Positions 1 to 15,190 of a stretch of 16,700 bases of DNA are shown here, in pieces. The notes under the pieces are model-generated. The model worked only from the letters and a program-made list of their open reading frames with translations. It was not told the origin of the DNA and ran no database searches. This stretch comes from Rhodobacterales bacterium UBA5972. Lineage in GTDB: Bacteria; Pseudomonadota; Alphaproteobacteria; Rhodobacterales; Rhodobacteraceae. The first letter of the stretch is position 1. Each line of letters begins with the position of its first letter. A program made the translations under genes and the position numbers. The stretch is taken from contig DJBQ01000141.1 in the NCBI GenBank assembly GCA_002430125.1, forward strand, positions 1 through 16,700, read 5' to 3'.

Positions 1-823
1 CCAAAGTTATGTCTTCGCCAAAGGCCATGTATCCGACCAAAAACATAGTTGGTAATTCCACGCTGCCAGCGACACCCGTTGCGCTGGCGCCGATTTTGGG
101 AGCGAAGACGACATAAATGAACTGCGGCAGGGTTGCGGTGATCACACCGATGCCGATCAACAGCACCCAAACCGAAGGATCTTTGGGGATGATTGCGTCG
201 ATCGGATAGGTTGCCATCAATGGCAATAACACAACGGCGGATCCTAACGGCCCAGCCACCATGCGCGAAATCGGCGGCAAGGCCACCAGTTTATGGGTCA
301 GGATGTTGATGCCAATACCAAAGGCAAAAGGTGCCAGAAGCGCAAACAATATGGAATGCAGCGGAAATTCAGCACCGCCCGACGGCGCCGCCGCGATAAT
401 TGCGGCCAGCAGGATCAACCCGGATGCTATGGACATGCGCAGGGTGGGGCGGTCACCGAAAAACAACCAGCTGATCAGCAGGGTGAAAATCGGATAGGTC
501 ATGTAAAGGATGCCGGCGGTTGAAACCGGCATCAGTTCCAGCGCGTTAACATAGCCAACCCAGCCAAGCCCCAGCAAGATGCCGGACGCCAATCCCCAAT
601 AGGTTGCCGAACTGCCGGGGCCGCGCAGAACCAGAAAGCGGAAGAACAGCAGAGGCGAGATCAGATAGCGAAAGAACGCAACCGCTGGCGGGGCGATGCC
701 TGCTTCGGTCAGCGAGCGGGCGAAAAACGGCACGAGGCCGAAAAACACCGCACTCAGCATGATCATCGCCAGGCCAAAGGCAAATTGGTCGGTCAGTTTA
801 ACGGGTTGCGCGTCAGTTTCCAT
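1..823 (-). CDS. DMT-superfamily (EamA) membrane permease, 3' end cut off by window edge
   Basis: An open frame runs on the minus strand from an ATG at 823-821 to the window edge without a stop, giving 274 codons of an incomplete protein. The translation begins METDAQPVKLTDQF and continues as about nine hydrophobic helices separated by short loops. It includes a first-helix region AMIMLSAVFFGLVPFFARSL and a mid-protein YMTYPIFTLLISWLFFGDRP segment of the kind that closes the first EamA repeat. A second, similar half follows, as expected of the two-repeat, ten-helix drug/metabolite transporter fold; probably only the last helix is missing. The substrate cannot be told from sequence. It lies 70 bases downstream of the pyrG stop on the same strand, with a hairpin between them, so it may be read through from pyrG or transcribed alone. 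I see no strong ribosome binding site before the ATG. Confidence 0.85.
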   Translation of the reverse strand, partial: METDAQPVKLTDQFAFGLAMIMLSAVFFGLVPFFARSLTEAGIAPPAVAFFRYLISPLLFFRFLVLRGPGSSATYWGLASGILLGLGWVGYVNALELMPVSTAGILYMTYPIFTLLISWLFFGDRPTLRMSIASGLILLAAIIAAAPSGGAEFPLHSILFALLAPFAFGIGINILTHKLVALPPISRMVAGPLGSAVVLLPLMATYPIDAIIPKDPSVWVLLIGIGVITATLPQFIYVVFAPKIGASATGVAGSVELPTMFLVGYMAFGEDITL

Positions 824-866
824 CGGCTGACTGTCGGACAGGCGCGGCCTTGGTGCTGTTCAGATT

Positions 867-885
867 GCGACCCGGAAAGGGTCGC
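867..885 (-). terminator. Hairpin just after pyrG, possible weak terminator
   Basis: A perfect 7-bp stem, GCGACCC at 867-873 pairing with GGGTCGC at 879-885, encloses a 5-base loop and begins 9 bases past the pyrG stop. Read on the minus strand, the bases after the stem are AATCTG, so there is no U tract. It could be a weak or Rho-assisted terminator, or an mRNA 3'-end stabiliser, between pyrG and the permease gene. Confidence 0.4.
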
Positions 886-893
886 GTTCCGGA

Positions 894-2537
894 TCAGACC
901 AAACGCGATTGTTCTACGGCGGCGCGGATGAAATCGGCGAACAGGGGGTGCGGTTCGAACGGTTTTGATTTGAGTTCCGGGTGGAACTGCACACCGATAT
1001 ACCACGGGTGGTCAGGCAGTTCGACGATCTCGGGCAATTTGCCATCGGGAGACATGCCGGAAAAGATCATGCCTTTGGCTTCAAGCGGTTCGCGGTAGCG
1101 CAAGTCAACCTCGTAGCGGTGGCGGTGGCGTTCGGAAATCGTGGTTGTGCCGTAGATTTGCGCAACCTGGCTGTTTGCCGTCAGGGTGGCGTTATAAGCG
1201 CCAAGGCGCATGGTGCCGCCTTTGTCGTCGCTTGCGTCGCGCTGGATTGTGCGGTTGCCTTCGACCCATTCTTTCAGGTGGTATACCACCGGGGTGAAAC
1301 GCTTTTTTCCGGCCTCGTGGTCGAACTCTTCCGATCCGGCATCGTCAACATTAGCCAGATTTCGTGCCGCCTCGATCACCGCCATTTGCATGCCCAGACA
1401 GATGCCAAAGTATGGCACTTTGCGGGTCCGGGCAAACTCTGCGGCTTTGATCTTGCCTTCGGTGCCGCGTTCACCAAAGCCGCCGGGCACCAGGATTGCG
1501 TCAAATTTTTCCAGATGTGGGGCCGCGTCTTCGCGCTCGAATATCTCGCTGTCGATCCATTCGGCTTTGACCTTGACCCGGTTTTGCATGCCGCCATGGG
1601 TCAACGCCTCGGCGATGGATTTATAGGCGTCTTCCAGTTGGACATATTTGCCCACGATCGCCACGCGAACGACACCGTCGGGATTATAAACCCGGTCGGC
1701 CACATCCAGCCATTTCTCGAGCTTTGGTTGCGGCGCAGGCGAGATATTAAAGGCGTCAAGCACCGCCCGGTCAAGACCGACTTTGTGATAGGCCAAAGGC
1801 GCCTCGTAGATCGATTTCAGATCAAGGGCGGGGATCACCGCATCATCCCGCACGTTACAAAACAGCGCGAGCTTGGCGCGTTCCTTTTCAGGGATTGGGT
1901 GTTCAGACCGGCACAACAGAATATCCGGTGCCAGACCGATGGAGCGCAGTTCCTTGACCGAATGCTGCGTTGGTTTGGTTTTGAGCTCGCCAGAGGCAGC
2001 CAGAAACGGCAGCAATGTTAGGTGCATGAAAATACAATCGCCACGCGGTTTTTCGCGGGAAAACTGGCGGATCGCTTCAAAGAACGGCAGGCCTTCGATA
2101 TCGCCGACAGTGCCGCCGATTTCGCAGAGCATGAAATCGACTTCGTCTTCGCCGATATGGATGAAGTCTTTGATTTCATTGGTGACATGCGGAATTACCT
2201 GAATTGTTTTGCCCAGATAATCGCCACGACGTTCCTTTTCCAGAACGGTCGAATAAATTCGCCCCGACGACACACTGTCGGTTTTTCGCGCCGCCACACC
2301 GGTGAAACGTTCGTAATGGCCCAGATCCAGATCGGTTTCCGCGCCGTCATCGGTGACAAATACTTCACCATGTTCAAACGGCGACATCGTGCCGGGATCG
2401 ACATTGAGATAGGGGTCGAGTTTGCGCAGACGTACAGAATAACCGCGGGCCTGCAACAGGGCCCCCAAAGCAGCCGAGGCTAAACCTTTTCCAAGCGAAG
2501 AAACCACGCCGCCGGTGATAAAAACAAATCGTGCCAT
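894..2537 (-). CDS. pyrG: CTP synthase (UTP-ammonia ligase)
   Basis: A full-length protein of 547 residues, the family's usual size. It makes CTP from UTP, ATP and glutamine in the cytoplasm, the last step of pyrimidine nucleotide synthesis. The N-terminal amidoligase domain (about 1-270) opens with [14 protein letters not shown], the characteristic P-loop, and contains [15 protein letters not shown], the conserved UTP/CTP-site region. The C-terminal class I glutamine amidotransferase domain (about 295-540) shows GGFGERG, the nucleophile motif GICLGMQ with Cys380, and the VQFHPE pair His519/Glu521. All catalytic residues are present. The ATG at 2537-2535 matches the family N terminus. A GGGGAGG Shine-Dalgarno-like run lies about 12 bases upstream, rather far. 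The gene is 185 bases downstream of secG on the same strand, a gap large enough for its own promoter. Confidence 0.98.
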
Positions 2538-2611
2538 TGGTTGCGGAAACCTCCCCGTGAATTTAACTGCTAAATCAGTACCTTACAGGCAAAATGCCAA
2601 GCAAAAAGCCC

Positions 2612-2636
2612 ATATATCACGGGATTTGAGATATAT
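2612..2636. repeat. AT-rich inverted repeat upstream of pyrG
   Basis: ATATATC at 2612-2618 and GATATAT at 2630-2636 form a perfect 7-bp inverted repeat with an 11-base spacer, about 75-100 bases upstream of the pyrG start and between secG and pyrG. It could be an operator or simply part of an AT-rich promoter. I could not place convincing -35 and -10 boxes next to it. Confidence 0.35.
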
Positions 2637-2722
2637 TAGATTCGCACGCCTTTGGCAACCCAAGACGCCCCAAGATGCTGTGATAAAAACCTATTCAGCA
2701 ACGAGCGGTTGTCGTGAAACGC

Positions 2723-3091
2723 TTATTCGGTGGCTTTTGGTGGTGTCGCTGGCTGATCCGAGGTGCTGGGTGGCAGAAGATTACCGTCAAGACCCGGAAC
2801 TGTAATCGGTGTAACCGGCGTTTCTGTGGTTGTGCCAAGGCGTTCAATCACCGAATCCCCGGCGGCATTTTTGGCGGCCAACACCGTCAATGTGATCGAG
2901 GTCGCCAGAAAGCCAATGGCAAAAATCCAGGTCAGTTTGGCCAATGCACTGGCGGCTGAACGACCGCTCATCAAGCCACCGCCGCCACCGCCGCCAATAC
3001 CAAGCCCGCCACCTTCTGAACGCTGCAACAAAACTACACCAATCAGGCATAGCGCCAGCATCAGATGAATGACCAGAATGATATTTTCCAT
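2723..3091 (-). CDS. secG: Preprotein translocase subunit SecG
   Basis: A 122-residue inner-membrane protein that assists the SecYE channel during protein export. It shows the standard layout: a first transmembrane helix near residues 3-21 (starting MENIILVIHLML), the conserved VLLQRSEGGGLG loop, a glycine-rich stretch, and a second helix around 50-72 (LTWIFAIGFLATSITLTVLA). A Pro/Thr-rich tail of about 45 residues follows, the kind of tail often seen in alphaproteobacterial SecG. It is preceded on the minus strand by AAGGGA at usable spacing from the ATG. The secG-pyrG order on one strand is common in alphaproteobacteria. The preceding gene on the same strand ends 103 bases upstream, so secG may be in a loose operon with it or have its own promoter. 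Confidence 0.95.
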   Translation of the reverse strand: MENIILVIHLMLALCLIGVVLLQRSEGGGLGIGGGGGGGLMSGRSAASALAKLTWIFAIGFLATSITLTVLAAKNAAGDSVIERLGTTTETPVTPITVPGLDGNLLPPSTSDQPATPPKATE

Positions 3092-3134
3092 GCCGTGTCC
3101 CTTGGGGGTCGGATTTTCGTTGGCGTTGTCTAAA

Positions 3135-3152
3135 ACAAGCAGCCAGCCTTGT
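3135..3152 (-). terminator. Weak hairpin with short U run upstream of secG
   Basis: Read on the minus strand, ACAAG, an 8-base loop and CTTGT are followed by a short U run (TTTTAG), about 45 bases past the stop of the DUF6524-like gene. The stem is only 5 bp, so this is at best a weak intrinsic terminator separating that gene from secG. Confidence 0.25.
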
Positions 3153-3194
3153 CGATGGTCTTATTTAGAGATGCGGCCAGAACGTTGCAAGGTT

Positions 3195-3593
3195 TCAGTC
3201 ATCCGCATCGTCAACGTCATATTGCCCTGACATGGCGCGGCGCACAAAGCTCCAACTCAGGCCAATGCCCAGTACAAAGGACAGACCGACCAGTACAAAC
3301 CAGACTTTGACCGTCGCATTGCCAAGCTGAATGATACCCTGATCAATCAGCACCCAAACGCCTGCGGCCACAATCGCGCTTACCAGCCCCATGCCGATCA
3401 TCCCGATCGACCTTAAGGTGGCACGAAGATAAATGATGTAACCTGCCATCAAAAGCAGCCCCATCAGGACCGTCATTGCGGTTTCACGGTTGAAATTCAC
3501 CATCGTCCAACTGACGTAGTTCCAGTCTGTCGGGTTATATGTGGCGGCCAAAAGGACAAAGGCCATCGCCCAGCGGATCAAAAAACCGTTCAT
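3195..3593 (-). CDS. Small four-helix membrane protein, DUF6524-like
   Basis: A 132-residue protein made almost entirely of four hydrophobic segments: about residues 5-20, a helix beginning TAMTVLMGLLLMAGYIIYL, then one beginning GMIGMGLVSAIVAAGVWVL, then VWFVLVGLSFVLGIGLSWSF. It ends in an acidic tail, DVDDADD. The N terminus, MNGFLIRWAMAFVLLAATYNPT followed by NWN/SW residues, is a pattern I associate with the uncharacterised family DUF6524 in Rhodobacteraceae; that identification is from memory. No catalytic motif is visible and I cannot propose a function. It is transcribed divergently from purA across a 147-base gap that contains a CtrA-like site, with secG downstream on the same strand. 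The start is the first ATG; no strong ribosome binding site precedes it. Confidence 0.8.
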   Translation of the reverse strand: MNGFLIRWAMAFVLLAATYNPTDWNYVSWTMVNFNRETAMTVLMGLLLMAGYIIYLRATLRSIGMIGMGLVSAIVAAGVWVLIDQGIIQLGNATVKVWFVLVGLSFVLGIGLSWSFVRRAMSGQYDVDDADD

Positions 3594-3612
3594 GCGTGTA
3601 CTCGTATGCTTG

Positions 3613-3627
3613 TTAATCGAGCGTTAA
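3613..3627. promoter_or_regulatory. Candidate CtrA-type box TTAA-N7-TTAA
   Basis: TTAA at 3613-3616 and TTAA at 3624-3627 are separated by exactly seven bases. This is the spacing of the full-length binding site for the alphaproteobacterial cell-cycle regulator CtrA. It sits 20 bases upstream of the DUF6524-like ATG and 114 bases upstream of the purA ATG, so it could act on either. A match of eight fixed bases in AT-rich intergenic DNA can occur by chance. Confidence 0.35.
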
Positions 3628-3740
3628 TTGTCAGATAGGCTTGGCTGTGTCCAGTGTTTCGGCGATTTTGTGGTTTCGCCCGTGTGTTGCTGAGGCTATA
3701 CGAGGCGCGGAATTTCAGCTGCGCGAAAGGGTCTTGCGGA

Positions 3741-5033
3741 ATGGCCAATGTTGTTGTGGTCGGTGCCCAATGGGGTGACGAAGGTAAAGGCAAAATCGTT
3801 GACTGGCTCAGCGAACGCGCCGATGTGATCGCGCGGTTTCAGGGCGGACACAATGCCGGGCATACGCTGGTTATCGACGGCGAGGTTTACAAACTGTCGT
3901 TGCTGCCATCCGGCATCGTGCGCGGCGGTAAGTTAAGTGTGATCGGCAATGGCGTGGTTCTGGACCCGTGGCATCTGGTCAGCGAGATTGCCACGTTGCG
4001 TGACCGGGGCGTTGAAATCACGCCTGAAAACCTGATGATCGCGGAAAATGCTCCGCTGATCCTTCCGGTGCACGGCGAATTGGACCGCGCGCGGGAAAAC
4101 CAGAACGCCGTGGCCAAAATCGGCACGACAGGGCGCGGCATTGGCCCGGCTTATGAAGACAAGGTTGGGCGTCGGGCGATCCGTGTGGCCGATCTGGCTG
4201 ATCCGGCAACGCTGGAACTGCGGATTGATCGCCTGCTTGTGCATCACGATGCGTTGCGGCGCGGTCTGGGCTTGCCCGAAGTGGATCGCGCAGCATTGCT
4301 CGCCGCATTAAACGAGATTGCGCCGCAGATTCTGCCCTATGCCGCACCGGTTTGGAAAGTCCTGAACGACAAGCGCAAGGCCGGCAAGCGCATCCTGTTT
4401 GAAGGCGCGCAAGGGGCTTTGCTGGATATTGATTTCGGCACGTATCCGTTTGTCACCTCGTCAAATGTCATCGCGGGTCAAGCCGCGACCGGCACCGGCA
4501 TGGGTCCGGGGGCGATTGATTTCGTGCTTGGCATTGTGAAGGCTTACACAACACGGGTCGGCGAGGGGCCGTTCACCGCAGAATTGCATGACGCTGATGG
4601 CCAAAGGCTGGGCGAGCGCGGCCATGAGTTCGGCACAGTGACCGGGCGCAAGCGGCGTTGCGGTTGGTTTGACGCGGTTCTGGTGCGCCAGACTTGCGCT
4701 ACATCCGGTGTGAACGGCATTGCCTTTACCAAGCTTGACGTGCTCGACGGCTTTGAAGAGCTGAAAATCTGCGTGGCCTACGAACTTGACGGGCAGCGGC
4801 TGGATTATCTGCCAATTGCTGCCGACCAACAGGCGCGCTGCACGCCGGTTTATGAAACCCTGCCGGGTTGGTCGCAATCGACCGAAGGCGCGCGCTCGTG
4901 GGCCGATCTGCCAGCCGAAGCGATAAAATATGTGCGTCGGGTGGAAGAACTGATTGATTGCCCGGTTGCCCTGCTGTCCACAAGTCCCGAGCGCGAGGAT
5001 ACCATCCTTGTCACCGACCCGTTTGCCGACTGA
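3741..5033 (+). CDS. purA: Adenylosuccinate synthetase
   Basis: A 430-residue enzyme, very close to the 432 residues of the E. coli protein. It joins IMP and aspartate using GTP, the first committed step from IMP to AMP. The P-loop-like motif [11 protein letters not shown] (8-18) contains the catalytic Asp13, and GGHNAGH (35-41) supplies the catalytic His41. Further family signatures include [42 protein letters not shown] and the GTP-site KLDVLDG. The frame is open upstream to 3654, but ATG 3741 is chosen because the protein then starts [18 protein letters not shown] like known PurA proteins and AAAGGG lies upstream. The stop overlaps the start of the next gene by one base (TGATG). The gene is divergent from the DUF6524-like gene. 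Confidence 0.98.
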
Positions 5034-5248
5034 TGGCCCTGTCTTACAAAGCCCGCCGCCGCTTGTCGGTCGTGATCCTGCTGGTGGGCCTGCCGATCTA
5101 TATCGTCGTGGCACTGAACGTCGTAGCGCTGTTTGACCGCCCGCCGTTTTTGCTTGAACTGGCGATCTATGTCGTTTTGGGGATCGTCTGGGTCTTGCCC
5201 CTGAAAGCCGTGTTCAAAGGCATCGGACAGGCAGACCCGGACGCCTGA
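5033..5248 (+). CDS. Small two-helix membrane protein, DUF2842-like
   Basis: A 71-residue protein starting [19 protein letters not shown]. Two hydrophobic segments are visible, about residues 12-32 (VVILLVGLPIYIVVALNVVAL) and 40-60 (LELAIYVVLGIVWVLPL), with a basic N terminus and a short acidic C terminus, so both ends are likely cytoplasmic. This pattern fits the uncharacterised DUF2842 family of alphaproteobacteria; function unknown. The ATG overlaps the purA stop by one base, so it is translated with purA from the same mRNA. The frame also extends upstream inside purA, but the overlap start gives the family N terminus. A candidate terminator begins 30 bases after its stop. Confidence 0.88.
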   Translation: MALSYKARRRLSVVILLVGLPIYIVVALNVVALFDRPPFLLELAIYVVLGIVWVLPLKAVFKGIGQADPDA

Positions 5249-5278
5249 TCGATGCTGGTTATCCGGTGTATTCGCAAG

Positions 5279-5329
5279 GCAGGCAGGCGACGGGGCGGGG
5301 AAGCTGGACCTGTCTGCGATTTTATTTCT
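5279..5329 (+). terminator. Intrinsic terminator of the purA-DUF2842 unit
   Basis: GCAGGCAGG at 5279-5287 pairs with CCTGTCTGC at 5309-5317 (nine pairs, one of them G-U). It is followed by a U-rich stretch, ATTTTATTTCTT, at about 5319-5330. The loop is long (21 bases) but the stem plus U tract, 30 bases after the last stop codon, fit a Rho-independent terminator. Confidence 0.6.
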
Positions 5330-5526
5330 TGAGCATGTGTGCCGGATGGCGGCTTTGGGCCCAAGTTGCCGACCTCAGCCAACAAGTCGCAGCAGAAGTT
5401 GTTCCGCAACGCTGTCAGATTGCACAAAAGGATAGTGAGCACCCTTTTTCTACTTAAGGACACTATTCACCATTTGCGCGTCCAGGGACTGCATTTGCCC
5501 GTCGGTCAAACAAGTATTGTAGGCAG

Positions 5527-5778
5527 TCACGACCGACTACTTGCCCTCCCAACTGGCATAGAAACTTCGGGTATTGCCCGCATCGCCAAAACAATGAGCA
5601 CCAAAATGCCAGAGATTATAGGCGCCTCCACTCTTTCGGTAGAGTGTCCCAAGACCAGACCCAAAATCGGCGGATAAGCGGCAAAGGCAATAGCTTGCCG
5701 TGCAACGCAATGCAGAGCTGATCTGGCGCAACCGATGGAAAACCAGACGCCAAGCAGAAGGTGCGATCTTCCAGTATT
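5527..5778 (-). pseudogene. Possible decayed membrane-protein fragment without a start
   Basis: Between a TAA at 5781-5779 and a TGA at 5529-5527 the minus strand has 83 sense codons. They read like a membrane protein: a VWFSIGCARSALH segment, IAFAAYPPILGLVLGH, then a helix PIISGILVLIVLAM ending MPVGRASSRS. There is no ATG near its upstream end and no ribosome binding site. It could be the C-terminal remnant of a lost transporter or a chance hydrophobic frame. I could not match it to a family. Confidence 0.25.
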
Positions 5779-5797
5779 TTAATGGGTTCTATCATTC

Positions 5798-5817
5798 ACG
5801 ACGGTGGCACTCGTCGT
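5798..5817. promoter_or_regulatory. Inverted repeat upstream of the operon, candidate operator
   Basis: ACGACG at 5798-5803 and CGTCGT at 5812-5817 are perfect inverted arms around an 8-base spacer, about 80 bases upstream of the acylphosphatase-like ATG. The size and position suit a dimeric repressor or activator site. No regulator gene is present in the window to pair with it, and no clear -35/-10 pair could be assigned. Confidence 0.35.
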
Positions 5818-5899
5818 TAGGTGGTAAAAGTCTCTTGGCCTTCGAACGAAAGGCTGTCTAAATGAGTTGAGAAACTGGAATGGAAGCGTGACAAGACCA

Positions 5900-6160
5900 A
5901 TGATACCTGCACCAGAAGACAAGGACGTCACAGCAGAAATCCTGATTTTTGGAGACGTAACTGCCACGGACTTCCCTTCGTGGATATCGCGCCATTCACA
6001 CAAGCTTGGTCTTCACACAGTTACCACAACATACCAGAACGATTGCTTGAAAGTGCAGGCAACGGGGCCGGATGAAATGTTAACAGCGCTTGCCGTGGGA
6101 TGCAGTCTTGGCCCGGCAACCGTTCTGATAGACAGGGTCGTTTTCACGGTAGTGCCTTGA
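5900..6160 (+). CDS. Acylphosphatase-fold protein lacking the catalytic residues
   Basis: An 86-residue protein, close to the usual 90 of acylphosphatases. The fold pattern is visible: a GxVxxxxFxxW core (GDVTATDFPSWI, 18-29), a helix ending in LGL (36-38), a V/T-rich strand, then the family's closing pattern with G56, the helix DEMLTALAVGC and GPATVLIDRV (71-80). However, the position of the essential Arg is Pro26 and that of the essential Asn is Thr44, so acyl-phosphate hydrolysis looks impossible. It may be a ligand-binding or structural member of the operon. The start is uncertain: ATG 5900 gives family length, and in-frame GTG 5888 and TTG 5867 are alternatives. It precedes the Rieske gene on the same strand with a 231-base gap. 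Family assignment is by pattern only and moderately sure. Confidence 0.6.
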   Translation: MIPAPEDKDVTAEILIFGDVTATDFPSWISRHSHKLGLHTVTTTYQNDCLKVQATGPDEMLTALAVGCSLGPATVLIDRVVFTVVP

Positions 6161-6162
6161 AA

Positions 6163-6327
6163 GTGGTGGAAATTGATTTCGCGCATCTTCGGGCCGGTTG
6201 GGTTTTCGCCGGTCAGGCGGCTTGGTCAAATGGGGTGTCAATGTTGCTGCCTGATAATGAACCACTCAAGCGTATTTTCGGTCATTTCTTGACAATCTAT
6301 TTGGCCCGGATGCCGCGGGAGCATTGA
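6163..6327 (+). CDS. Doubtful 54-residue ORF between the acylphosphatase-like and Rieske genes
   Basis: A frame beginning at GTG 6163, two bases after the preceding stop, encodes about 54 residues starting VVEIDFAHLRAGW and containing SMLLPDNEPLKRIFGHFL, ending LARMPREH. The composition is protein-like (amphipathic, balanced charges) and it fills most of the gap before the Rieske gene. There is no good ribosome binding site before the GTG and I do not recognise the sequence. It may be translated by coupling, be a remnant of a larger gene, or be untranslated leader. Confidence 0.3.
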   Translation: MVEIDFAHLRAGWVFAGQAAWSNGVSMLLPDNEPLKRIFGHFLTIYLARMPREH

Positions 6328-6391
6328 TCCTTGACGTCTTCAGAGAAAAATACCAGTCTTCTTCGAATTGGGGTTCGGGGTGGAGTGTTTC

Positions 6392-6994
6392 TTGGGTTGG
6401 ATACCTGTTGGATTAAGCGCTGATTTGTTGCCGAGCATGGCTATGCCGGCTCGGGTTGACGGTCAAGACCTCGCAATTTGGCGGGCTGCATCCGGTCAGA
6501 CTCACGTTTGGGGTGACCGTTGCCCGCATCGTGGAATGCGCCTGTCACGCGGATTTGTGCGTGGCGAAACGCTGGCCTGTATCTATCACGGCTGGCAATA
6601 CGGAAATGACGGTGGATGCACCCAAATTCCGGCGCACCCGAACCTTGTCCCGCCCAAAACAATTTGCGCAACCACCTATGCCTGTGCCGAATATTCTGGG
6701 GTTATTTGGGTTGCATTGCAGACGACAACGCAGGTTTGCCGATCGTTTCCGGGGCAGGCCGCAGTGCGGTCATTGGCGATCAAGGCCTCAGCTGAGAAAG
6801 TCATGGAATATTTTTCCGGCGCGGATACAGGTGTCGTGTGTGTCGGCGGTACCAATGACATCGCACTGGCATTGCAGCCCATTGATGCGACCCATTGCAC
6901 AGCGCATGCTTTGGCATCCGTGTCGGCAGATCGCAAAGAAGTGTCACGTTGGCTTGAATCGCAACGCCGCAGCATCGAACTGGACCTCGCATGA
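6392..6994 (+). CDS. Stand-alone Rieske [2Fe-2S] protein of an oxygenase system
   Basis: About 200 residues. The N-terminal two thirds is a Rieske domain of the oxygenase type: GWIPVGLSADL at the start, then CPH at Cys44/His46 and CIYHGWQYG at Cys63/His66, giving a complete C-x-H-x16-C-x2-H cluster motif. IPAHP and a YSGVIWVAL strand follow. The last about 90 residues lack iron ligands but keep the flavour of a reduced oxygenase C-terminal domain (ALQPIDATHCTAHAL and SRWLESQRR). The likely role is to carry electrons from a reductase to the neighbouring catalytic subunit, which has no Rieske motif. No ATG is available; TTG 6392 is chosen because GGAG lies six bases upstream and the protein then starts MGWIPVG. 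TTG 6368 and GTG 6380 are alternatives. Its stop overlaps the next start (ATGA). Confidence 0.88.
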   Translation: MGWIPVGLSADLLPSMAMPARVDGQDLAIWRAASGQTHVWGDRCPHRGMRLSRGFVRGETLACIYHGWQYGNDGGCTQIPAHPNLVPPKTICATTYACAEYSGVIWVALQTTTQVCRSFPGQAAVRSLAIKASAEKVMEYFSGADTGVVCVGGTNDIALALQPIDATHCTAHALASVSADRKEVSRWLESQRRSIELDLA

Positions 6995-7827
6995 CAGCCG
7001 GAATTGCCGACCACTGGTATCCCGTCGCGATGTGTTCGGGGATCAGCAGCCCACGCGACACCCGTCTTTTAGGGCAGGAAATAACCATAGGGCGTGAAGG
7101 TGAACAGTTTTGGGTGCGTGATGTGCACGGAAAAACACTACCCGCAATCGCGCGATATGGTCATCTGTGGACCAGCCCCGGTCAGCCCAACCGCGATCTG
7201 TTTTCCATCCCTGAGGCCGAAGCCCCGGGTCGGCGGCTGGTGGATTGTGGCGCTGTCAGGGTGAAATGCTCGCCCTTGCGGGCCGTAGAAAACTTTCTGG
7301 ATATTGCGCATTTCCCTTTTGTGCATACCGATATCCTTGGGGCTGAACCCTATACCGAAGTGTCGCGCTATGAAGTCCAGATACGCGAAGAGGTAGATGA
7401 GGTTTGGGCCACGAAGGTGAAATTCTTCCAGCCACAGGCCGCCCGATCCGCTGCTGGCGGAATCACCACCGAATACATGTACCGCGTCGCGGCGCCTACC
7501 AGTGCCGTACTTTACAAGACCTGCCCGCCGCGCCCCGGAGAATGGGATATCATCACGCTGTTCGTGCAGCCCCTGACCGAAGAGCTGTGCGACGTCTGGC
7601 CATGGATGGCGCTTTATGACGATACATCTCCGTTGGCCGAACTTGTCAGCTTTCAGCAGATGATTTTTATGCAGGATCGCTCCATTCTGGAAAGCCAGAT
7701 CCCACGAAAATTGCCGCTTGATCCAGGGATGGAGGCGCCAACCCAGGCCGATCTGACATCAGTGGCCTATCGGCGATGGTTGAAAAGAATCGGTTTTACC
7801 TATGGGGCGCAGGTGGTGGCGGCATGA
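6991..7827 (+). CDS. Rieske-type oxygenase catalytic subunit without a Rieske domain (NdmC-like)
   Basis: A 278-residue protein with the mononuclear-iron catalytic domain of ring-hydroxylating oxygenases/N- or O-demethylases. The iron motif ENFLDIAHFPFVH supplies Asn101, Asp104, His107 and His112. A late QDRSILESQ supplies Asp229 as third ligand, followed by a YRRWLKRIG tail as in VanA/NdmA-type enzymes. The N terminus starts like a full oxygenase (DHWYPVAM, TRLLGQEITI) but passes directly from WVRDVHG to a strand containing ARYGHLW, so the roughly 50 residues with the cluster ligands are absent. Full-length relatives have about 340-360 residues. It should therefore depend on the separate Rieske protein encoded just upstream, with which it overlaps by four bases. 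This arrangement is that of P. putida NdmC, the methylxanthine N7-demethylase subunit. Substrate inferred, not shown. Confidence 0.9.
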   Translation: MTAGIADHWYPVAMCSGISSPRDTRLLGQEITIGREGEQFWVRDVHGKTLPAIARYGHLWTSPGQPNRDLFSIPEAEAPGRRLVDCGAVRVKCSPLRAVENFLDIAHFPFVHTDILGAEPYTEVSRYEVQIREEVDEVWATKVKFFQPQAARSAAGGITTEYMYRVAAPTSAVLYKTCPPRPGEWDIITLFVQPLTEELCDVWPWMALYDDTSPLAELVSFQQMIFMQDRSILESQIPRKLPLDPGMEAPTQADLTSVAYRRWLKRIGFTYGAQVVAA

Positions 7828-8462
7828 TCCTTTACGACTATGTCCTCAGCGCAAGTTGCTACAAAGTCCGGTTGATGGCGGCACTACTGGATATTCCGAT
7901 CACATTGAAAGCTGTGAATTTTCATCCCGAAAAACAACACAAATCCCCTGAAATGTTGCGCCTCAACGCGGCGGGAACTTTGCCTGTACTTGTCGACGGG
8001 GATGTCATTTTGGTGCAAAGCGCCGATATGCTGCGCCACTTGGTTACCCCGAAAAATGCCGGGTGGTTGGGTGACAATCCCGCGCAAACCGAAAAATGGC
8101 TGGATTTTGCAAGCCGCCTGAACGCCAGCCTTGGCATGGCAAGATTGCATGACGTTTTGATGTTCGATGCAGATATTGATCAGGTGCGCTGCGATGGCGT
8201 CGCCCAACTGCGCCAGCTGGAGGAATGGCTGACCGAGCAGCGCTTCGACGGCATGACTTTTCTGACCGGCGCCGCGCCGACCATTGCGGATATCGCCTGT
8301 TTTCCGAATGCGGCGCTGGCCGAAGACGGGGGCGTCAGCCTTGATCCCTATCCGTCAATCCGCCTTTGGATGCGCGCGATACGGTCACTGCCGGGATTTA
8401 TCGAAATGCCAGGCATTCACCGCTTGCATGAACTTTCCCCCGCTCCAGCGAGGCCCGAATGA
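7824..8462 (+). CDS. Glutathione S-transferase-fold protein (NdmE-like)
   Basis: A 212-residue protein with the two-domain GST layout. The thioredoxin-like N-terminal domain (about 1-78) starts MILYDYVLSASCYKVRLMAAL, with NAAGTLPVLVDGDVILVQSADMLRHL around the cis-proline and glutathione-gamma-glutamyl site (V-Q-S in place of the usual E-S). The helical C-terminal domain contains PTIADIACFPNAAL, the conserved N-capping box/Asp of GSTs, and WMRAIRSLPGF. In the caffeine cluster a GST-like protein (NdmE) is required structurally for the NdmC-NdmD complex. By position between the oxygenase subunit and the deaminase this gene is the natural counterpart; classical transferase activity is not implied. 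The ATG at 7824 overlaps the upstream stop by four bases. A longer start at 7776 would lie inside the oxygenase gene. Confidence 0.9.
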   Translation: MILYDYVLSASCYKVRLMAALLDIPITLKAVNFHPEKQHKSPEMLRLNAAGTLPVLVDGDVILVQSADMLRHLVTPKNAGWLGDNPAQTEKWLDFASRLNASLGMARLHDVLMFDADIDQVRCDGVAQLRQLEEWLTEQRFDGMTFLTGAAPTIADIACFPNAALAEDGGVSLDPYPSIRLWMRAIRSLPGFIEMPGIHRLHELSPAPARPE

Positions 8463-9850
8463 CAGCCACACTCTTCAGATCATGCGAGGCGATTGTAACC
8501 TCGGCGTCCGATCCGGTGTTGTGGGGCCAAGATATATTGATCGAGGGCGGCGCAATCAAAGCGATCGGCCCGGACCTGTCGCGACAGGCCCCGGAGCATT
8601 GCACAGTTATCAACGCAGCGGGCATGTTTATCTATCCGGGTCTGGTCAACACGCATCACCATTTTTTCCAATGCTTTGTGCGCAACCGAGCCGAGCTCGA
8701 CTGGACCCGGTATTCCGTGATCGAGTGGCTTGACCGCATTTACCCGATATTTTCTCGCCTGAACGAGGATTGCTTTTATCACAGCTCGGTCGTGGCAATG
8801 GCCGAACTGATCAAGCACGGCTGCACCACCGCCTTTGACCATCAGTATTGCTTTCCCCGCCATGCAGGGACCCGGATCATTGACCGTCAGTTCGAGGCAG
8901 CCGAGCTGCTTGGAATGCGTTTTCATGCAGGCAGGGGGGGCAACACTTTGCCCAAGTCTGAAGGCAGCACCATTCCCGATGAAATGCTTGAAACGACCGA
9001 TGAATTCATCAGTGATTGCGAAAGGGTGATCGATGCATATCACGATGCCTCGGCGTTTTCGATGCGGCAGGTCGTGGTGGCGCCGTGCCAGCCGGTGAAT
9101 TGCTACAGGGAAACTTTTGTCGAATCTGTCAGACTGGCCCGCGACAAGGGCGTGTTCCTGCACAGCCATGTGGGCGAAGGCGAAAGCCCGGTGATTGCAC
9201 AGGTCCACGGCAAACGCACGGTCGAGTATTGCGAAGACATCGGCTTTGCTGGGCCCGATACATTCTATGCCCATGGCTGGGAACTGACCCGCGCCGAGCT
9301 GCAAAAAATGGCGGCAAGCGGCACCGGTCTGTCGCATTGTCCCGAGCCGGTTTATCTGGTGGGGGCCGAAGTGACGGATATTCCGGCGATGGAGGCCCTG
9401 GGCCTGCGCGTTGGTTTGGGCGTTGACGGGGCGGCGTCCAACGATAATTCTAACCTGATGCATTGTGTGCATTCCGCTTACATGCTGCAGTGCCTTGCCG
9501 CATCCGGACGTCAGGATGCGGTGCCAACGCCCGCGCGCTTTTTGTCTTACGCAACCGAAGGCGGGGCGTCTTTGCTGGGTCGACCGGACATTGGCGCATT
9601 GCGGCCGGGAATGGCTGCCGACCTTTTTGCCATTGATACCCGCAAACTTGATTACGTAGGCACACGGCATGATCCGATCAGCTTAATTGCAAAGGTCGGA
9701 ATCGGATCAGTGGTAGATCTGACAATGATCAACGGTCGCGTCGTCTGGGCCAATGGCGCTTTTCCGCACCTCGATGAAGCAGCACTGTTTCACGCGGCCG
9801 AGGAATCACTTCACACTATTTTACCAACTCAAACCCAAGGGGGATTGTAA
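8459..9850 (+). CDS. Amidohydrolase-family purine-type deaminase (8-oxoguanine/guanine deaminase-like)
   Basis: A 463-residue member of the amidohydrolase superfamily, of the length and layout of 8-oxoguanine deaminase and AtzB-like aminohydrolases. Visible metal and catalytic elements are PGLVNTHHHFFQ (HxH motif, strand 1), ELIKHGCTTAFDHQYCFP, HAGRGG, LHSHVGEGES (strand 5 His plus Glu), YAHGWEL (strand 6 His), GLSHCPEP and GVDGAASNDNSN with the strand 8 Asp. The expected reaction is hydrolytic deamination of a purine or pterin-like base in the cytoplasm. The segment after SHCP reads EPVYLVG rather than the SSNMRLG typical of 8-oxoguanine deaminases, so the substrate may differ; guanine, 7-methylguanine and isoxanthopterin-like substrates are all possible. 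It overlaps the GST-like gene by four bases and touches the BMP gene by one (TAATG). Confidence 0.9.
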   Translation: MTATLFRSCEAIVTSASDPVLWGQDILIEGGAIKAIGPDLSRQAPEHCTVINAAGMFIYPGLVNTHHHFFQCFVRNRAELDWTRYSVIEWLDRIYPIFSRLNEDCFYHSSVVAMAELIKHGCTTAFDHQYCFPRHAGTRIIDRQFEAAELLGMRFHAGRGGNTLPKSEGSTIPDEMLETTDEFISDCERVIDAYHDASAFSMRQVVVAPCQPVNCYRETFVESVRLARDKGVFLHSHVGEGESPVIAQVHGKRTVEYCEDIGFAGPDTFYAHGWELTRAELQKMAASGTGLSHCPEPVYLVGAEVTDIPAMEALGLRVGLGVDGAASNDNSNLMHCVHSAYMLQCLAASGRQDAVPTPARFLSYATEGGASLLGRPDIGALRPGMAADLFAIDTRKLDYVGTRHDPISLIAKVGIGSVVDLTMINGRVVWANGAFPHLDEAALFHAAEESLHTILPTQTQGGL

Positions 9851-10944
9851 TGTCACAAAAACTGGAACGCCGGACTTTTCTGAAGGGCACGCTTGCTGCA
9901 AGCACCGCAATAATGCTGCCCATGCGCGCCATGGCCAGCGAGCCCTTGAAGATTGGGGTTGTCCTGCCCTCGCCCGCGGCGGATGTCGGCTGGTCGCATA
10001 CTTTGCTGGCGGGTGTGGACACCGTGAAAAAGGCTTATGGTGATATGCTGCAAGTAACCGTACTGGAAAACATTGCCGAAGGCCCCGACGCGGATCGTAT
10101 CGCCAACGGGCTGGTCGCAGACGGCAACAAAGTGCTTTTGCTCGGCTCGTTTGGCTATCAGAACGGCGGCATCCAAATCGCAAAACGCAACCCGGATGTC
10201 TCGGTCATTCACGCCTCCGGATATTTGACCGAGCCGAACTTTTCACCGTTCACCGCAAAATACTGGCAAGGCACATATCTGATGGGTATGGCCGCTGCAT
10301 CGCTGACCAAGTCCAAGAAACTGGGCTGTGTGGCTGCATTTGCGATCCCCGAACTGATCACATCGATAAATGCTTTCATGCTTGGCGCCCGTTCCGTCAA
10401 CCCGGAAATCGAAATGAGCGTGGTCTGGGTGAATTCGTGGTTCGACCCGGCATCCGAACAAGACGCCGCCAAGGCATTGATTTCGCAAGGCGTCGACGTG
10501 ATCTTCTCCAACGCGCAGGACACGCCGTCGGTGATTGCGGTGGCCGAAGAGGCGGGTGTTTATGCTTACAACCTTAATTCATCAATGGCGAAATATGCAC
10601 CTTCCAAATACCTCGGTGTGGTCGGTACCGATTGGGGTCCGCATTTCAAACGTCTTGTCGACGAACATCTGGCCGGGACATTCGAGGGCAAGAATTTCTG
10701 GCTGGGGATGGAGGATGATGTTGTCTATGTCGCCGACTGGAATGCGGATATTCCCGCCGACATGATGGCCCTAATCAAGGCGCGGCAGACTGAAATCAGC
10801 AGTGGGTCTTTCGTGGTCTTCAAGGGTCCACTGAAGGATCAGGCCAGTGCCGAACGTGTGGCCGATGGTGTGTCGATGACCGATTCCGAGATCATCAGCA
10901 TGGATTGGCATGTTGCCGGCGTTACCACGCCTCTGCCGTCATGA
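9850..10944 (+). CDS. BMP-family periplasmic substrate-binding protein, Tat-exported
   Basis: A 364-residue ABC-importer binding protein of the BMP/PnrA family, members of which bind purine nucleosides and related compounds. The N terminus has a twin-arginine signal, ERRTFLKG, then a hydrophobic stretch and a cleavage-like AMASEP at about residues 27-34. There is no lipobox cysteine, so it is predicted to be a soluble periplasmic protein exported folded. The mature part begins LKIGVVLPSPAADVGWSHT, and contains the family's hinge-region signatures LLLGSFGYQNG, YWQGTYLMGMAA, GVDVIFSNAQDTP and GVVGTDWGP. AGGGGG lies seven bases before the ATG, an unusually strong ribosome site that fits high expression relative to upstream genes. 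It is placed first in the four-gene transporter set, directly behind the deaminase. Confidence 0.93.
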   Translation: MSQKLERRTFLKGTLAASTAIMLPMRAMASEPLKIGVVLPSPAADVGWSHTLLAGVDTVKKAYGDMLQVTVLENIAEGPDADRIANGLVADGNKVLLLGSFGYQNGGIQIAKRNPDVSVIHASGYLTEPNFSPFTAKYWQGTYLMGMAAASLTKSKKLGCVAAFAIPELITSINAFMLGARSVNPEIEMSVVWVNSWFDPASEQDAAKALISQGVDVIFSNAQDTPSVIAVAEEAGVYAYNLNSSMAKYAPSKYLGVVGTDWGPHFKRLVDEHLAGTFEGKNFWLGMEDDVVYVADWNADIPADMMALIKARQTEISSGSFVVFKGPLKDQASAERVADGVSMTDSEIISMDWHVAGVTTPLPS

Positions 10945-12446
10945 CGAACGCCGCGCCGACGCTTTTGCGCCTTTCCGGGGTGTCCAAGAGCTATGGTGCG
11001 GTGCAGGCAAATATTGCGATCGACCTGGAGGTGAAATCCGGGTCGATCCATGCCGTATTGGGTGAGAACGGGGCGGGTAAATCCACCCTGATGAAAATGA
11101 TTTATGGGGTCGAGCAGCCGGATGGCGGCCATATCCTGTGGAACGGCAAACGTGTCCATATGGCACGACCGTCAGATGCCCAAGCACTGGGTATCGGGAT
11201 GGTTTTCCAGCACTTCTCGCTGTTTGAAACGCTTAGCGTCGTGCAAAATGTATCTCTGATGGTGCCGGGAAAGCTGGCAGAACTCGCGAAGAAGATCATG
11301 GAGTTGGGCGAACAATTCGGCCTGACGGTTGATCCTGACGCGATGGTTCACCGTTTGTCGGTTGGTGAACGGCAGCGCGTGGAAATCATCCGGTGTCTGC
11401 TGCTACAGCCGAAACTGTTGATCCTTGACGAGCCGACCTCGGTTCTGCCTCCGCAAAGCGTGCGCCTGCTTTTTGCAACCCTGCGCAGCCTTCAGGCACA
11501 GGGCATGGCGATCCTGTTCATTTCTCATAAACTTGATGAAATCCGCGAACTTTGCGATGAGGCGACGGTCTTGCGTGGTGGTGAAGTCACCGGCCGGGTA
11601 GATCCGCGCGGTCATTCCGCCAGCCATTTAGCCACGCTGATGATTGGGCGCGAGATGCCTAAACTTGCAGTGACAAAAGCCACGCCCTCAAACGAGGTGC
11701 GCCTGTCGCTGAATGGCCTTAACCACCCGGCGATCAGCCGGTTCGGCACCACGCTGCGCGCCGTCAACATGGAGCTGCGTAGCGGACAAATTATTGGAAT
11801 CGCAGGAATTTCTGGAAACGGACAGCAGGAACTTGCCGCGTTGATCTCGGGCGAAACCCGGTGCAAACAGCGCGATATGATCACGATCATGGGGCAACAG
11901 GCAGGCATATTGGATCCGGCGCAAAGGCGCAGTCTGGGCTTTGCATTTGTTCCTGAAGAAAGGCTTGGCCGTGGCGCTGTGCCCGAGATGTCTTTGGCCG
12001 ATAACAGCCTGCTGACCGCGCATCGCCTTGGCATGTTGCGGGGCGGGTTTATTCGACGCCAGGTCGAACGCACCTTCACCAAAGAATGCATTAAAGAATT
12101 CGACGTCCGCACACCAGGACCCGATGCCGAAGCAGGGTCAATGTCAGGCGGCAACCTGCAAAAGTTCATTCTTGGACGCGAAATCATGCTTGACCCAAAG
12201 GTCATGCTGGTTTCGCAGCCCACATGGGGCGTTGATATTGGGGCTGCCACTGCCATTCGCCGCCGACTTCTGGACATGCGCGACGAGGGTGCCGCGTTGC
12301 TGGTCATCTCGGAAGAACTGGAAGAGTTGTTTGAAATCTGCGACGTCCTGCATGTCCTGCACAAAGGCGTGTTGTCAGCGCCTCTGGACGCCGCAACCAC
12401 CACGGCTCAGGACATTGGGGCATATATGATCGGTGCCAAAACATGA
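10941..12446 (+). CDS. ABC importer ATPase with two nucleotide-binding domains (BMP-type)
   Basis: A 501-residue tandem ATPase energising import with the two following permeases. Domain 1 has a full set of motifs: Walker A GENGAGKST (41-49), Q-loop VFQHFSLFE, signature LSVGERQR, Walker B LLILDEPTSVLPP and switch ISH. Domain 2 is degenerate, as is normal for this family: the Walker A position reads GISGNGQQE (about 285-293) without Lys, while MSGGNLQKF is a good signature and VSQPTWGVD replaces Walker B. ATP hydrolysis is therefore expected at one composite site. The ATG at 10941 is chosen because it overlaps the upstream stop by four bases (ATGA); a longer frame from 10905 would overlap the BMP gene. 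The relatives I recall are nucleoside (NupO-like) importers. Confidence 0.95.
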   Translation: MTNAAPTLLRLSGVSKSYGAVQANIAIDLEVKSGSIHAVLGENGAGKSTLMKMIYGVEQPDGGHILWNGKRVHMARPSDAQALGIGMVFQHFSLFETLSVVQNVSLMVPGKLAELAKKIMELGEQFGLTVDPDAMVHRLSVGERQRVEIIRCLLLQPKLLILDEPTSVLPPQSVRLLFATLRSLQAQGMAILFISHKLDEIRELCDEATVLRGGEVTGRVDPRGHSASHLATLMIGREMPKLAVTKATPSNEVRLSLNGLNHPAISRFGTTLRAVNMELRSGQIIGIAGISGNGQQELAALISGETRCKQRDMITIMGQQAGILDPAQRRSLGFAFVPEERLGRGAVPEMSLADNSLLTAHRLGMLRGGFIRRQVERTFTKECIKEFDVRTPGPDAEAGSMSGGNLQKFILGREIMLDPKVMLVSQPTWGVDIGAATAIRRRLLDMRDEGAALLVISEELEELFEICDVLHVLHKGVLSAPLDAATTTAQDIGAYMIGAKT

Positions 12447-13522
12447 AACTAAGGCTTGTTAGGCGCGACACCGCATCGCGCCTTGCCATGATTGCCGCGC
12501 CGATCCTGGCGCTTGTTCTGGCCTGTCTGGCCAGCCTGATCTTGTTCGCGTTATTGGGCAAACCGGCAGGAACAGCACTTTACGCGCTTTTGCTGAAACC
12601 GTTTCTGAGTTGGTACAGCTTTACCGAAGTGCTGCTTAAAATGGCGCCGTTGCTCATGATCGCCCAGGGGCTGGCCATTGGTTTTCGAGCCAATGTTTTT
12701 AATATTGGTGCCGAGGGGCAATTTATCATCGGCGCGGTTTGTGCGTCTGCTTTGCCAGTCTGGTATCCTGACGGCAATTTTCCTTTGATGTTGCCTGCCA
12801 TGATTATTGCCGGGGCGTTGGGTGGCATGGTTTATGCCATGATCGCTGCAGGGCTGCGTACCCGATTTGGCGCATCCGAGATTTTGGTCACGCTGATGTT
12901 GAGCCTGATCGCGGCCCAAATTCTGAACTATCTTTTGCTCGGTCCCTGGAAAGACCCGCATGGTTTCAATTTTCCGCAATCCGTGATGTTTCCCGACAAT
13001 GCAATTCTGCCTTTGCTGTTCCCAGGAACTCGCACCAACATTTCCCTCGTGTTTGCATTGGTCGCCAGCGGATTTGCCTATCTGATGATGCAGCATCATT
13101 TTCGCGGCTATCAACTGCGCACGGCCGGCCTTGCACCGCGTGCCGCACTTTATGCTGGGTTTAACGCCCCGCGCATGATCTGGCTTAGCTTGGCGCTTGG
13201 CGGGCTGGCTGCCGGAATCGCCGGCGCCAGCGAGGTGGCCGGTCCTATGGGGCAACTTCAAAGGTCAATCTCGTCCGGGTATGGCTATGCCGCCATTATC
13301 GTGGCCTATATGGGCGGGTTGAACCCGATCGGAATTATCGTGTCAAGTTTCCTGATTTCGGTTATTTACATAGGTGGCGACAGTGCGACCGTTACGGCGG
13401 GCTTGCCCGTTGCTGCGGTTGAGGTGTTTCAGGGATTTCTGCTGGTCTTTTATTTGCTGACCTTCACCTCAATCCGCTATCGAATTTCCATTTCGAAACC
13501 CCACTCAAAGGGCACCAAATGA
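12443..13522 (+). CDS. BMP-type ABC importer permease 1 (NupP-like)
   Basis: A 359-residue inner-membrane permease with about ten hydrophobic helices. It has an N-terminal anchor (SRLAMIAAPILALVLACLAS) and the family signature ANVFNIGAEGQFIIGA around 85-100, which contacts the ATPase. A late GYGYAAIIVAYMGGLNPIGI segment is also typical of branched-chain/nucleoside permeases of this type. It forms a heterodimer with the next gene product. It is the longer of the pair, as is usual, because of extra N-terminal helices. The start overlaps the ATPase stop by four bases and the stop overlaps the next start by four bases, so the two permeases are translationally coupled. Confidence 0.95.
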   Translation: MKLRLVRRDTASRLAMIAAPILALVLACLASLILFALLGKPAGTALYALLLKPFLSWYSFTEVLLKMAPLLMIAQGLAIGFRANVFNIGAEGQFIIGAVCASALPVWYPDGNFPLMLPAMIIAGALGGMVYAMIAAGLRTRFGASEILVTLMLSLIAAQILNYLLLGPWKDPHGFNFPQSVMFPDNAILPLLFPGTRTNISLVFALVASGFAYLMMQHHFRGYQLRTAGLAPRAALYAGFNAPRMIWLSLALGGLAAGIAGASEVAGPMGQLQRSISSGYGYAAIIVAYMGGLNPIGIIVSSFLISVIYIGGDSATVTAGLPVAAVEVFQGFLLVFYLLTFTSIRYRISISKPHSKGTK

Positions 13523-14394
13523 GCGTGGTTGAATTCCTTTTGGCAGGGACCCTGGCGGCGGCAATGCCGCTGTTGCTGGCTGCCCTAGGCGAATTGGTGG
13601 TGGAGCGCACCGGTGGTCTTAATCTGGGGCTGGAAGGCATGATGGCCCTAGGTGCAGTGATTGCCTTTATCTGCGTTTATCACAGCGGATCACATCTGAT
13701 CGGGTTTCTGGCGGCGGCGATTGCTGGTGCAGCTTTTGCGATGGTCTTTGCCGGTCTGGTCCTTGTAATCAAAGCCAACGAGGTCGCCGCAGGCCTTGCG
13801 ATTGGTGTGCTCGGCCTTGGCCTGTCGGCCCTTTTCGGGAAGTCTTACGAAAGCCACACAATCAAGGGGCTGCCGGATTATCGGTTGCCTGTGCTGTCCG
13901 AAATTCCGGTCATCGGTCCAACGTTTTTCACGCAGGATGTTGTCGTCTGGATCACGGTCATCGGGACGGCATCGCTTTGGTATGTGCTGAACAAGACAAA
14001 GCTTGGCCTGATCATCACAGCTGTTGGCGAAAACAGCGAAGCGGCGCGATCAATAGGCTATCCGGTTGGCGCAATCCGCTGTGCCGCCATCGCCTTTGGC
14101 GGCGGAATGTGCGGCCTGGCCGGGGCCTATGCTTCCACGGTTTACACGCCGCTTTGGGCGGATGGCATGATCGCAGGCCGCGGCTGGATCGCGCTGGCTT
14201 TGGTAGTCTTTGGAACCTGGCAAACCGGTCGGGTCGCCTTTGGCGCAATCCTGTTTGGCTTGCTTTCTATCGGTGAACTTATCGTACAGGCCATGGGTGT
14301 CGCGTTACCGTCTCAACTGCTGTCCAGCTTGCCGTATCTCGCCACGATCCTGATGCTCGTTGTTATTTCGAAACGGCGCCAGCCAATGGTGTAA
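13519..14394 (+). CDS. BMP-type ABC importer permease 2 (NupQ-like)
   Basis: A 291-residue permease, almost wholly hydrophobic, with the signature ERTGGLNLGLEGMMALGAV near residues 29-47 and GENSEAARSIGYPVGAIR, the cytoplasmic loop that docks on the ATPase. A GLAGAYASTVYTPLWADGMIAGRGWIALA-type segment (about 195-222) matches the family's conserved membrane core. It pairs with the preceding permease to form the channel. It is last in the chain of overlapping genes; the next gene starts 86 bases later with its own strong ribosome site. No hairpin with a U tract is visible in that gap, so transcription may continue into the next gene. Confidence 0.95.
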   Translation: MSVVEFLLAGTLAAAMPLLLAALGELVVERTGGLNLGLEGMMALGAVIAFICVYHSGSHLIGFLAAAIAGAAFAMVFAGLVLVIKANEVAAGLAIGVLGLGLSALFGKSYESHTIKGLPDYRLPVLSEIPVIGPTFFTQDVVVWITVIGTASLWYVLNKTKLGLIITAVGENSEAARSIGYPVGAIRCAAIAFGGGMCGLAGAYASTVYTPLWADGMIAGRGWIALALVVFGTWQTGRVAFGAILFGLLSIGELIVQAMGVALPSQLLSSLPYLATILMLVVISKRRQPMV

Positions 14395-14480
14395 AAGGGG
14401 TGGCGCCAGACGAATGCGAACGCCGGCTGGAAAAGGTGTCAGGAAATGCCAATGAAATAACTCTGACCGAGGGAGGGAAC

Positions 14481-15174: not shown

Positions 15175-15190
15175 AGCATTTCAAGTCAGA

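Follow-up and report, generated by a model that had tools for sequence, protein, structure and literature searches.

A probable Rieske oxygenase divided between two chains in a putative methylguanine operon of Alphaproteobacteria

The locus

The window analysed here is a stretch of 16,700 nucleotides from Rhodobacterales bacterium UBA5972 (assembly GCA_002430125.1, contig DJBQ01000141.1, positions 1 to 16,700). Three consecutive genes on its forward strand appear to encode the parts of one Rieske oxygenase. The first (RSK, 6392..6994, 200 amino acids) encodes a Rieske [2Fe-2S] subunit with what looks like a shrunken, metal-less catalytic domain at about residues 120-199. The second (CAT, 6991..7827, 278 amino acids, a VanA_C protein) encodes a catalytic subunit that has no Rieske domain and is related to NdmC. 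The third (7824..8462) encodes a glutathione S-transferase (GST)-like protein of the NdmE kind (GST_N_3, 4.5e-11). These three genes overlap by ATGA.

The operon does not, of course, stop there. It runs on from the GST gene, with overlaps of ATGA or of one base, to the second permease of a transporter (8459-14394). Here lie, all on the forward strand, an amidohydrolase of the NdmH type that carries the full NdmH active-site set (8459..9850), a BMP-type substrate-binding protein related to AtzT with a weak match to a twin-arginine signal (9850..10944), the ATPase of an ATP-binding cassette (ABC) transporter (10941..12446), and its two permeases (12443..13522 and 13519..14394). To the three genes recognized in a first-pass annotation, the operon therefore adds a predicted dimethylguanine hydrolase and a transporter that, judged by its relatives, is of the purine type.

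Relatives of CAT were scanned with one genome taken per species; at least 516 were confirmed, and the best 80 were kept as named loci. Counts out of 80 in this paper describe these nearest relatives only. Locus labels count any open reading frame of a given kind anywhere in the locus. At one locus (L038), the labelled ATPase and permease genes are those of a different transporter, and a label count of 76 was corrected to 75.

The Rieske chain

The first-pass annotation had placed a Rieske motif alone on a 200-residue protein, and this placement stands. The motif is Cys44-x-His46-x16-Cys63-x2-His66, its exact form C-x-H-x16-C-x2-H recurs in all 80 RSK chains, and Pfam matches the Rieske family at 8.9e-21 (in a scan that started from TTG at 6368). 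The tail that follows lacks D-x2-H-x4-H in all 80. Among the 120 homologues listed of 334, every one is 180-219 amino acids long, except one of 148.

RSK is more than its motif. Its confident structural model aligns to a whole Rieske oxygenase across 200 of 200 residues, with the best structural match to the SxtT/GxtA Rieske oxygenases. Sequence comparisons match it to oxygenases (SxtT at 3.1e-28, NdmA at 3.9e-16) far better than to Rieske ferredoxins (CarAc at 4.6e-5, T4moC at 0.028). Profile comparison also finds a tail related to that of RSK on NdmD-like proteins. Thus, what had been called a "spare Rieske domain" is a separate chain, as claimed, but not a bare domain; in the predicted structure, it looks like a complete oxygenase fold in which the catalytic domain is vestigial and has no ligands.

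The catalytic chain

CAT presents the complementary picture. It matches VanA_C (4.6e-19) and has no Pfam Rieske match; the cluster motif is missing from all 80 CAT chains, just as the earlier reading had it skip the cluster region. The motif N-x2-D-x2-H-x4-H and the Asp of a later QDR[SI]IL are present in all 80. Homologues span 265-282 amino acids (120 listed of 3174).

Four residues had been proposed to bind the mononuclear iron. Three of these, His107, His112, and Asp229, we take to be the ligands from comparison with homologous Rieske oxygenases, for example dicamba monooxygenase. The fourth, Asp104, is on the same grounds not a ligand, but rather the bridging residue, which in such enzymes contacts the Rieske His of the adjacent subunit. 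No alignment made here shows any variation at this Asp. The best structural match of CAT is again to SxtT/GxtA.

The two centres of a Rieske oxygenase are therefore not found here on one chain. The [2Fe-2S] motif is found on RSK only, and the 2-His-1-carboxylate site with its bridging Asp (residue roles as we take them) on CAT only, in 80 of 80 loci. RSK and CAT look like two paralogues that have degenerated in complementary ways. In SxtT and GxtA, which act on different substrates, one chain holds both centres.

Relationship to NdmC, NdmD, and NdmE

The parallel drawn earlier was to NdmC, NdmD, and NdmE of Pseudomonas putida, and it is borne out. CAT is 46% identical over 275 amino acids to the record of the P. 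putida methylxanthine N7-demethylase (P0263, M1EY73). RSK is 40% identical over 108 amino acids to the N-terminus of NdmD, and the GST-like protein 40% identical over 205 amino acids to NdmE, both from a P. putida plasmid cluster. That cluster was recognized by its gene kinds and is flanked by formaldehyde genes; the gene kinds are those reported for a caffeine N-demethylation cluster in PMC4408171. CAT is only 21% identical to one of the full-length oxygenases of the same cluster, which was provisionally taken as NdmA-like. CAT is accordingly not a full-length oxygenase with a deletion introduced by sequencing error, which would have told against the split.

Both systems have an NdmC-family catalytic chain that carries no cluster, a second chain that bears the Rieske domain and a related tail, and a third protein of the NdmE type. 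What they do not share is the fusion. NdmD joins its Rieske domain to a flavin/NAD/2Fe-2S reductase, whereas the Rieske chain here is a separate protein of about 200 amino acids without reductase domains. The neighbours also differ: the NdmCDE cluster includes full-length oxygenases together with genes for formaldehyde and for a nucleobase symporter, and the present operon includes a hydrolase of the NdmH type and an ABC transporter of the BMP type. No unfused Rieske subunit of this kind, and no such operon, appears in the titles and abstract openings of the open-access PMC papers that the searches listed, among which the original NdmCDE papers do not figure.

In a tree of 74 catalytic domains, the 12 full-length oxygenases separate from the 62 Rieske-less chains (91/72; the split recurs in 92% of 200 bootstrap trees). 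Among the Rieske-less chains, 41 CATs that accompany an unfused RSK form one group (99/97), beside the group that holds NdmC (node 90/75). The Rieske tree, which has few columns, gives weak agreement (89). The CATs of four loci (L188, L191, L199, and L200) whose RSK is without reductase fall elsewhere, among the NdmD-type rows. Fused and unfused forms interleave in both trees, and the trees therefore favour neither fission from NdmD nor fusion into NdmD.

The catalytic tree leaves out five rows of an earlier tree: two odd or full-length proteins typed as CAT, two long-branched full-length oxygenases, and a partial CAT from L192, where RSK is unfused. The CAT profile likewise omits two of the five. 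Two further rows typed as RSK, both from L194, are full-length oxygenases; they were relabelled in the Rieske tree and left out of the tail profile.

Conservation, hosts, and alternative architectures

RSK lies directly before CAT on the same strand in all 80 named loci, and sizes of about 200 and 278 amino acids are general for the two chains in the relatives kept. The split is thus real and old, not a sequencing error. The GST gene is present in all 80, the hydrolase and the binding protein in 77 each, and the ATPase with the permeases in 75; all eight main genes occur together in 74. Four of the six incomplete loci (L023, L024, L038, and L062) reach the end of their stretch. The Rieske chain stands unfused at all 80 loci as well as in the window, for which the first-pass annotation had described it so.

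That annotation had also proposed a distinct version of the NdmCDE architecture in a marine alphaproteobacterium. Distinct it is, but it is no marine oddity. Hosts include Marivita, Sulfitobacter, Paracoccus, and Rhodobacter, but also Rhizobium, Mesorhizobium, Shinella, Martelella, Pleomorphomonas, and others; the operon is common among both Rhodobacterales and Rhizobiales. Of 390 genomes sampled from the window's order, its own among them, a stand-alone RSK was found in 22 and a reductase-fused form in 2 (E<=1e-28). Four stretches fitted a pattern for viral contigs carrying relatives, and none was confirmed.

The gene order of the window, called type I, is one of several. In type II (L007, L133, L135, and L138), RSK and GST genes diverge from a set of transporter, CAT, and guanine deaminase genes. 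Three of these four (L133, L135, and L138) have two CATs for one RSK, hinting that one electron-transfer subunit might serve several N-demethylases. At L135, the second CAT lies beside a frame like xanthine dehydrogenase, a match below the cut-off and cut by the end of the stretch. In type III (L128, L136, and L201), an unfused reductase stands beside RSK and CAT, with GST in two of the three loci. Type IV has the fused NdmD (L004, L005, L006, L130, L131, L190, and L196-L198).

Other arrangements occur as well. At L199 (7106-8359), RSK is fused to a plant-type ferredoxin domain alone, without flavin or NAD domains (Pfam Rieske and Fer2). At L008 (10901-12668), in one strain of S. meliloti, the annotation divides an NdmD-like gene into a Rieske piece and a reductase piece. 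At L202, L203, and L009, full-length Rieske oxygenases adjoin BMP-type ABC transporters, with a guanine deaminase also at L203. These full-length oxygenases may serve as proxies for the form from which the split system arose.

The hydrolase and the transporter

Enzymes that hydrolyse N2,N2-dimethylguanine have been described from a Rhodobacteraceae bacterium, from Haliea, and from Pleomorphomonas oryzae; that report names 13 active-site residues, including C213, Q214, N217, N165, and nine others (PMC13054789). The hydrolase of the window holds 13 of 13 (Q71, W82, W90, Y95, Y130, N162, C210, Q211, N214, E240, H272, P297, and D323 in its own numbering), as do the hydrolases of all 77 named loci that have one. 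Several of these residues are, of course, common to guanine deaminases; the telling ones are the C, the Q, the two N, Trp85, and Pro300. Ten guanine deaminase rows and four rows like 8-oxoguanine deaminase differ at the NdmH residues. Two of the latter four were tested, and both lie above the PRK08203 cut-off. An assignment of the window's enzyme to 8-oxoguanine deaminase (PRK08203) was rejected, its NCBIfam score being 371.9 bits against a cut-off of 532, and was replaced by NdmH on the basis of these residues.

A Pleomorphomonas homologue, numbered from its own start codon, reproduces exactly the residue numbers in PMC13054789. Among 14 genomes of the Pleomorphomonas genus group, five have the hydrolase at 92-100% identity, and two more have matches of only 37-40%. 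The hydrolase sits between RSK-CAT and the transporter in all five. The P. oryzae enzyme, poNdmH, would then itself lie in an operon of this kind. The words "Rieske" and "operon" are absent from the main text of PMC13054789. Thus, the window's enzyme shares with NdmH both its active-site residues and, presumably, its operon position.

The binding protein has its best matches in the PDB to 3s99 and to AtzT, with AtzT second (2.9e-76). PMC6834077 gives AtzT an affinity for guanine of 110 nM, describes its pocket, and reports that the 3s99 model includes an adenine. The window's protein keeps five of the eight pocket residues given there; those that differ are Tyr45, replaced by Trp, N169, and N220. 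None of the four binding proteins from type II loci retains this pocket. NCBIfam "B6" transporter names were rejected, with all four transporter proteins far below the cut-off.

The electron donor

No reductase reading frame is present in the stretches fetched for the 80 type I loci. A reductase dedicated to the system but encoded elsewhere in the genome was considered and set aside: a type III reductase query at E<=1e-20 found nothing in 6 of 16 genomes with RSK-CAT-GST, nor in either of two plasmid records. Elsewhere, it found 14 matches at 35-42% identity, eight of them inside open frames of 1070-1260 amino acids. The window's genome, which is 77% complete, has two reductase-type matches at E<=1e-40, one a 1064-residue protein and the other in a dimethylamine monooxygenase cluster. 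Given these searches and the absence of a reductase frame from the type I stretches, type I operons probably use a general electron donor.

Flanking genes

Upstream of RSK lies a small gene (ACYP, 5867..6160, forward strand) for a degenerate protein like acylphosphatase (Pfam Acylphosphatase 0.0021, below the cut-off). A frame of this kind is conserved in place at 75 of the 80 named loci. Aligned with 13 relatives, ACYP seems to lack what we take to be the usual acylphosphatase catalytic motif. The conservation and profile analysis used six control families, ACYP not among them. Farther upstream, translations judged by eye resemble CTP synthase (894-2537, reverse strand) and adenylosuccinate synthetase (3654-5033, forward strand).

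Directly after the transporter lies a gene like GFA/DUF6151, of the glutathione-dependent formaldehyde-activating family (14478-14987). It was matched in none of the other loci compared and is therefore probably outside the operon, though formaldehyde would be a product of the oxygenase. Elsewhere in the window's genome (L140:154-2879) lies the dimethylamine monooxygenase cluster (DmmA-like, reductase, HODM). Dimethylamine set free by NdmH could be consumed by this cluster.

Proposed mechanism and its alternatives

The pairing of the chains, their motifs and folds, the kinship to NdmC, NdmD, and NdmE, the hydrolase active-site set, and the kinship of the transporter were all computed. They lead us to propose that the operon probably encodes a heteromeric Rieske N-demethylase for methylguanine catabolism, in which RSK and CAT, paralogues degenerated in complementary ways, make up one oxygenase. 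The class of pathway is well supported; the substrate and the position of its methyl group we infer, as we do the complex, the electron path, and the order of steps.

In this proposal, the BMP-type ABC transporter would import a methylated guanine base. The RSK cluster would receive electrons from a general ferredoxin or reductase. In ordinary Rieske trimers, electrons pass between neighbouring protomers; here, they would cross the RSK-CAT interface, via Asp104 of CAT, to its mononuclear iron. CAT would then hydroxylate an N-methyl group, which would leave as formaldehyde. The methyl group removed would most likely be that on N7, as with NdmC, and because of the N7 specificity of NdmC, the simplest joint substrate would be an N7-methylated guanine. 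The NdmH-type hydrolase would take off an N2-dimethylamino group or deaminate, giving xanthine. The GST-like protein would be a structural partner, as has been proposed for NdmE. Historically, RSK would have kept the cluster as its catalytic domain shrank, and CAT would have retained the iron site but not the cluster lobe.

Several points weigh against this proposal. The vestige in RSK rests on the CAT profile and on a structure predicted by AlphaFold, a program already exposed to folds of this kind. The RSK tail profile is not significant against full-length oxygenases (15.3% in one run, 2.0% in another), and the type II tail scores 27.7% against CAT and 0.3% against full-length oxygenases. 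The Foldseek superposition of RSK on SxtT is loose (root mean square deviation 5.4), and the CAT model is of moderate quality (pLDDT 71.3). In the binding protein, two pocket residues of AtzT (numbered as in PMC6834077) are replaced in all 77 named loci, N169 by S or T and N220 by D. Should NdmH already dispose of N2,N2-dimethylguanine in a single step, the oxygenase would need another substrate, and the data do not fix which methyl group it removes; nor do they fix the electron donor. Finally, two loci with complete flanks depart from the pathway: L044 has RSK, CAT, and GST but no hydrolase or transporter within the 9 kb that follow, and L080 keeps the transporter without the hydrolase. These two exceptions lower slightly our confidence in the full statement.

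The same two loci, of course, retain a split oxygenase without a hydrolase, as would be expected if oxygenase and hydrolase worked on separate substrates in a broad salvage operon for 7-methyl-, 1-methyl-, and N2,N2-dimethylguanine from RNA. One transporter could take up several bases, and the type II loci with two CATs for one RSK look as if several methyl positions were served. Against this, each of the 80 type I loci has a single CAT, and 77 of these adjoin a single hydrolase. We regard broad salvage as possible, if short of an even chance.

A bolder extension of the N-demethylase proposal is offered only tentatively. N2,N2,7-Trimethylguanine comes from trimethylguanosine caps. The same base is reported from an ascidian in PMC5793054. 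The operon might serve such RNA-derived hypermethylated guanines through uptake, N7-demethylation, and loss of dimethylamine by NdmH to give xanthine. NdmCDE might then be a specialised offshoot of an older purine-salvage family, its Rieske paralogue fused to a reductase.

Alternatively, the system could be a methylxanthine N7-demethylase like NdmCDE. Here, the hydrolase would first deaminate 7-methylguanine to 7-methylxanthine, and the oxygenase would act on the xanthine. The identity of CAT to the P. putida enzyme suits this idea, as does the presence of a purine permease, a xanthine dehydrogenase family gene, or a urate hydroxylase near NdmC-type loci. However, a guanine-type binding protein and the NdmH active site are found wherever their genes are present (77 of 77 each), and other branches have a plain guanine deaminase. 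Further, at E<=0.001 the window's genome (77% complete) shows no relative of CAT besides CAT itself, and hence no partner like NdmA or NdmB for other methyl groups. We consider this route unlikely.

Still less likely is that RSK is an ordinary separate Rieske ferredoxin, in the style of class II/III dioxygenases, with CAT decayed or otherwise powered. Such ferredoxins do exist (CarAc, the naphthalene dioxygenase ferredoxin, and T4moC are weak RSK matches), but RSK is far closer to the Rieske domains of oxygenases, and its model spans a whole oxygenase. Further, CAT retains its iron ligands and bridging Asp in all 80 loci while having no cluster of its own. The ferredoxin assignment was rejected on the strength of the matches.

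An assembly or frameshift error that split one normal oxygenase gene has a negligible chance of being the explanation: such splits occur, as the two-piece S. meliloti annotation illustrates, but nothing in the window favours one, the arrangement is common to all 80 loci and to the 120 listed CAT homologues (of 3174), and both chains span whole-oxygenase folds and so are not two halves of one gene.

Significance

The heteromeric N-demethylase proposed here belongs to a frequent relative of NdmCDE that has no fusion at all. Structural models suggest that its "spare" Rieske part is a degenerate oxygenase paralogue. The family amounts to a natural experiment in parting electron transfer from catalysis, with unsplit, split, reductase-adjacent, ferredoxin-fused, and reductase-fused forms.

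Methylated guanine is a waste product of RNA, and the genes of this operon, read from their sequences, look built for its uptake and breakdown. The link between the split oxygenase and the newly found dimethylguanine hydrolases makes the recycling of methylated guanine by bacteria testable in culturable rhizobia and roseobacters.
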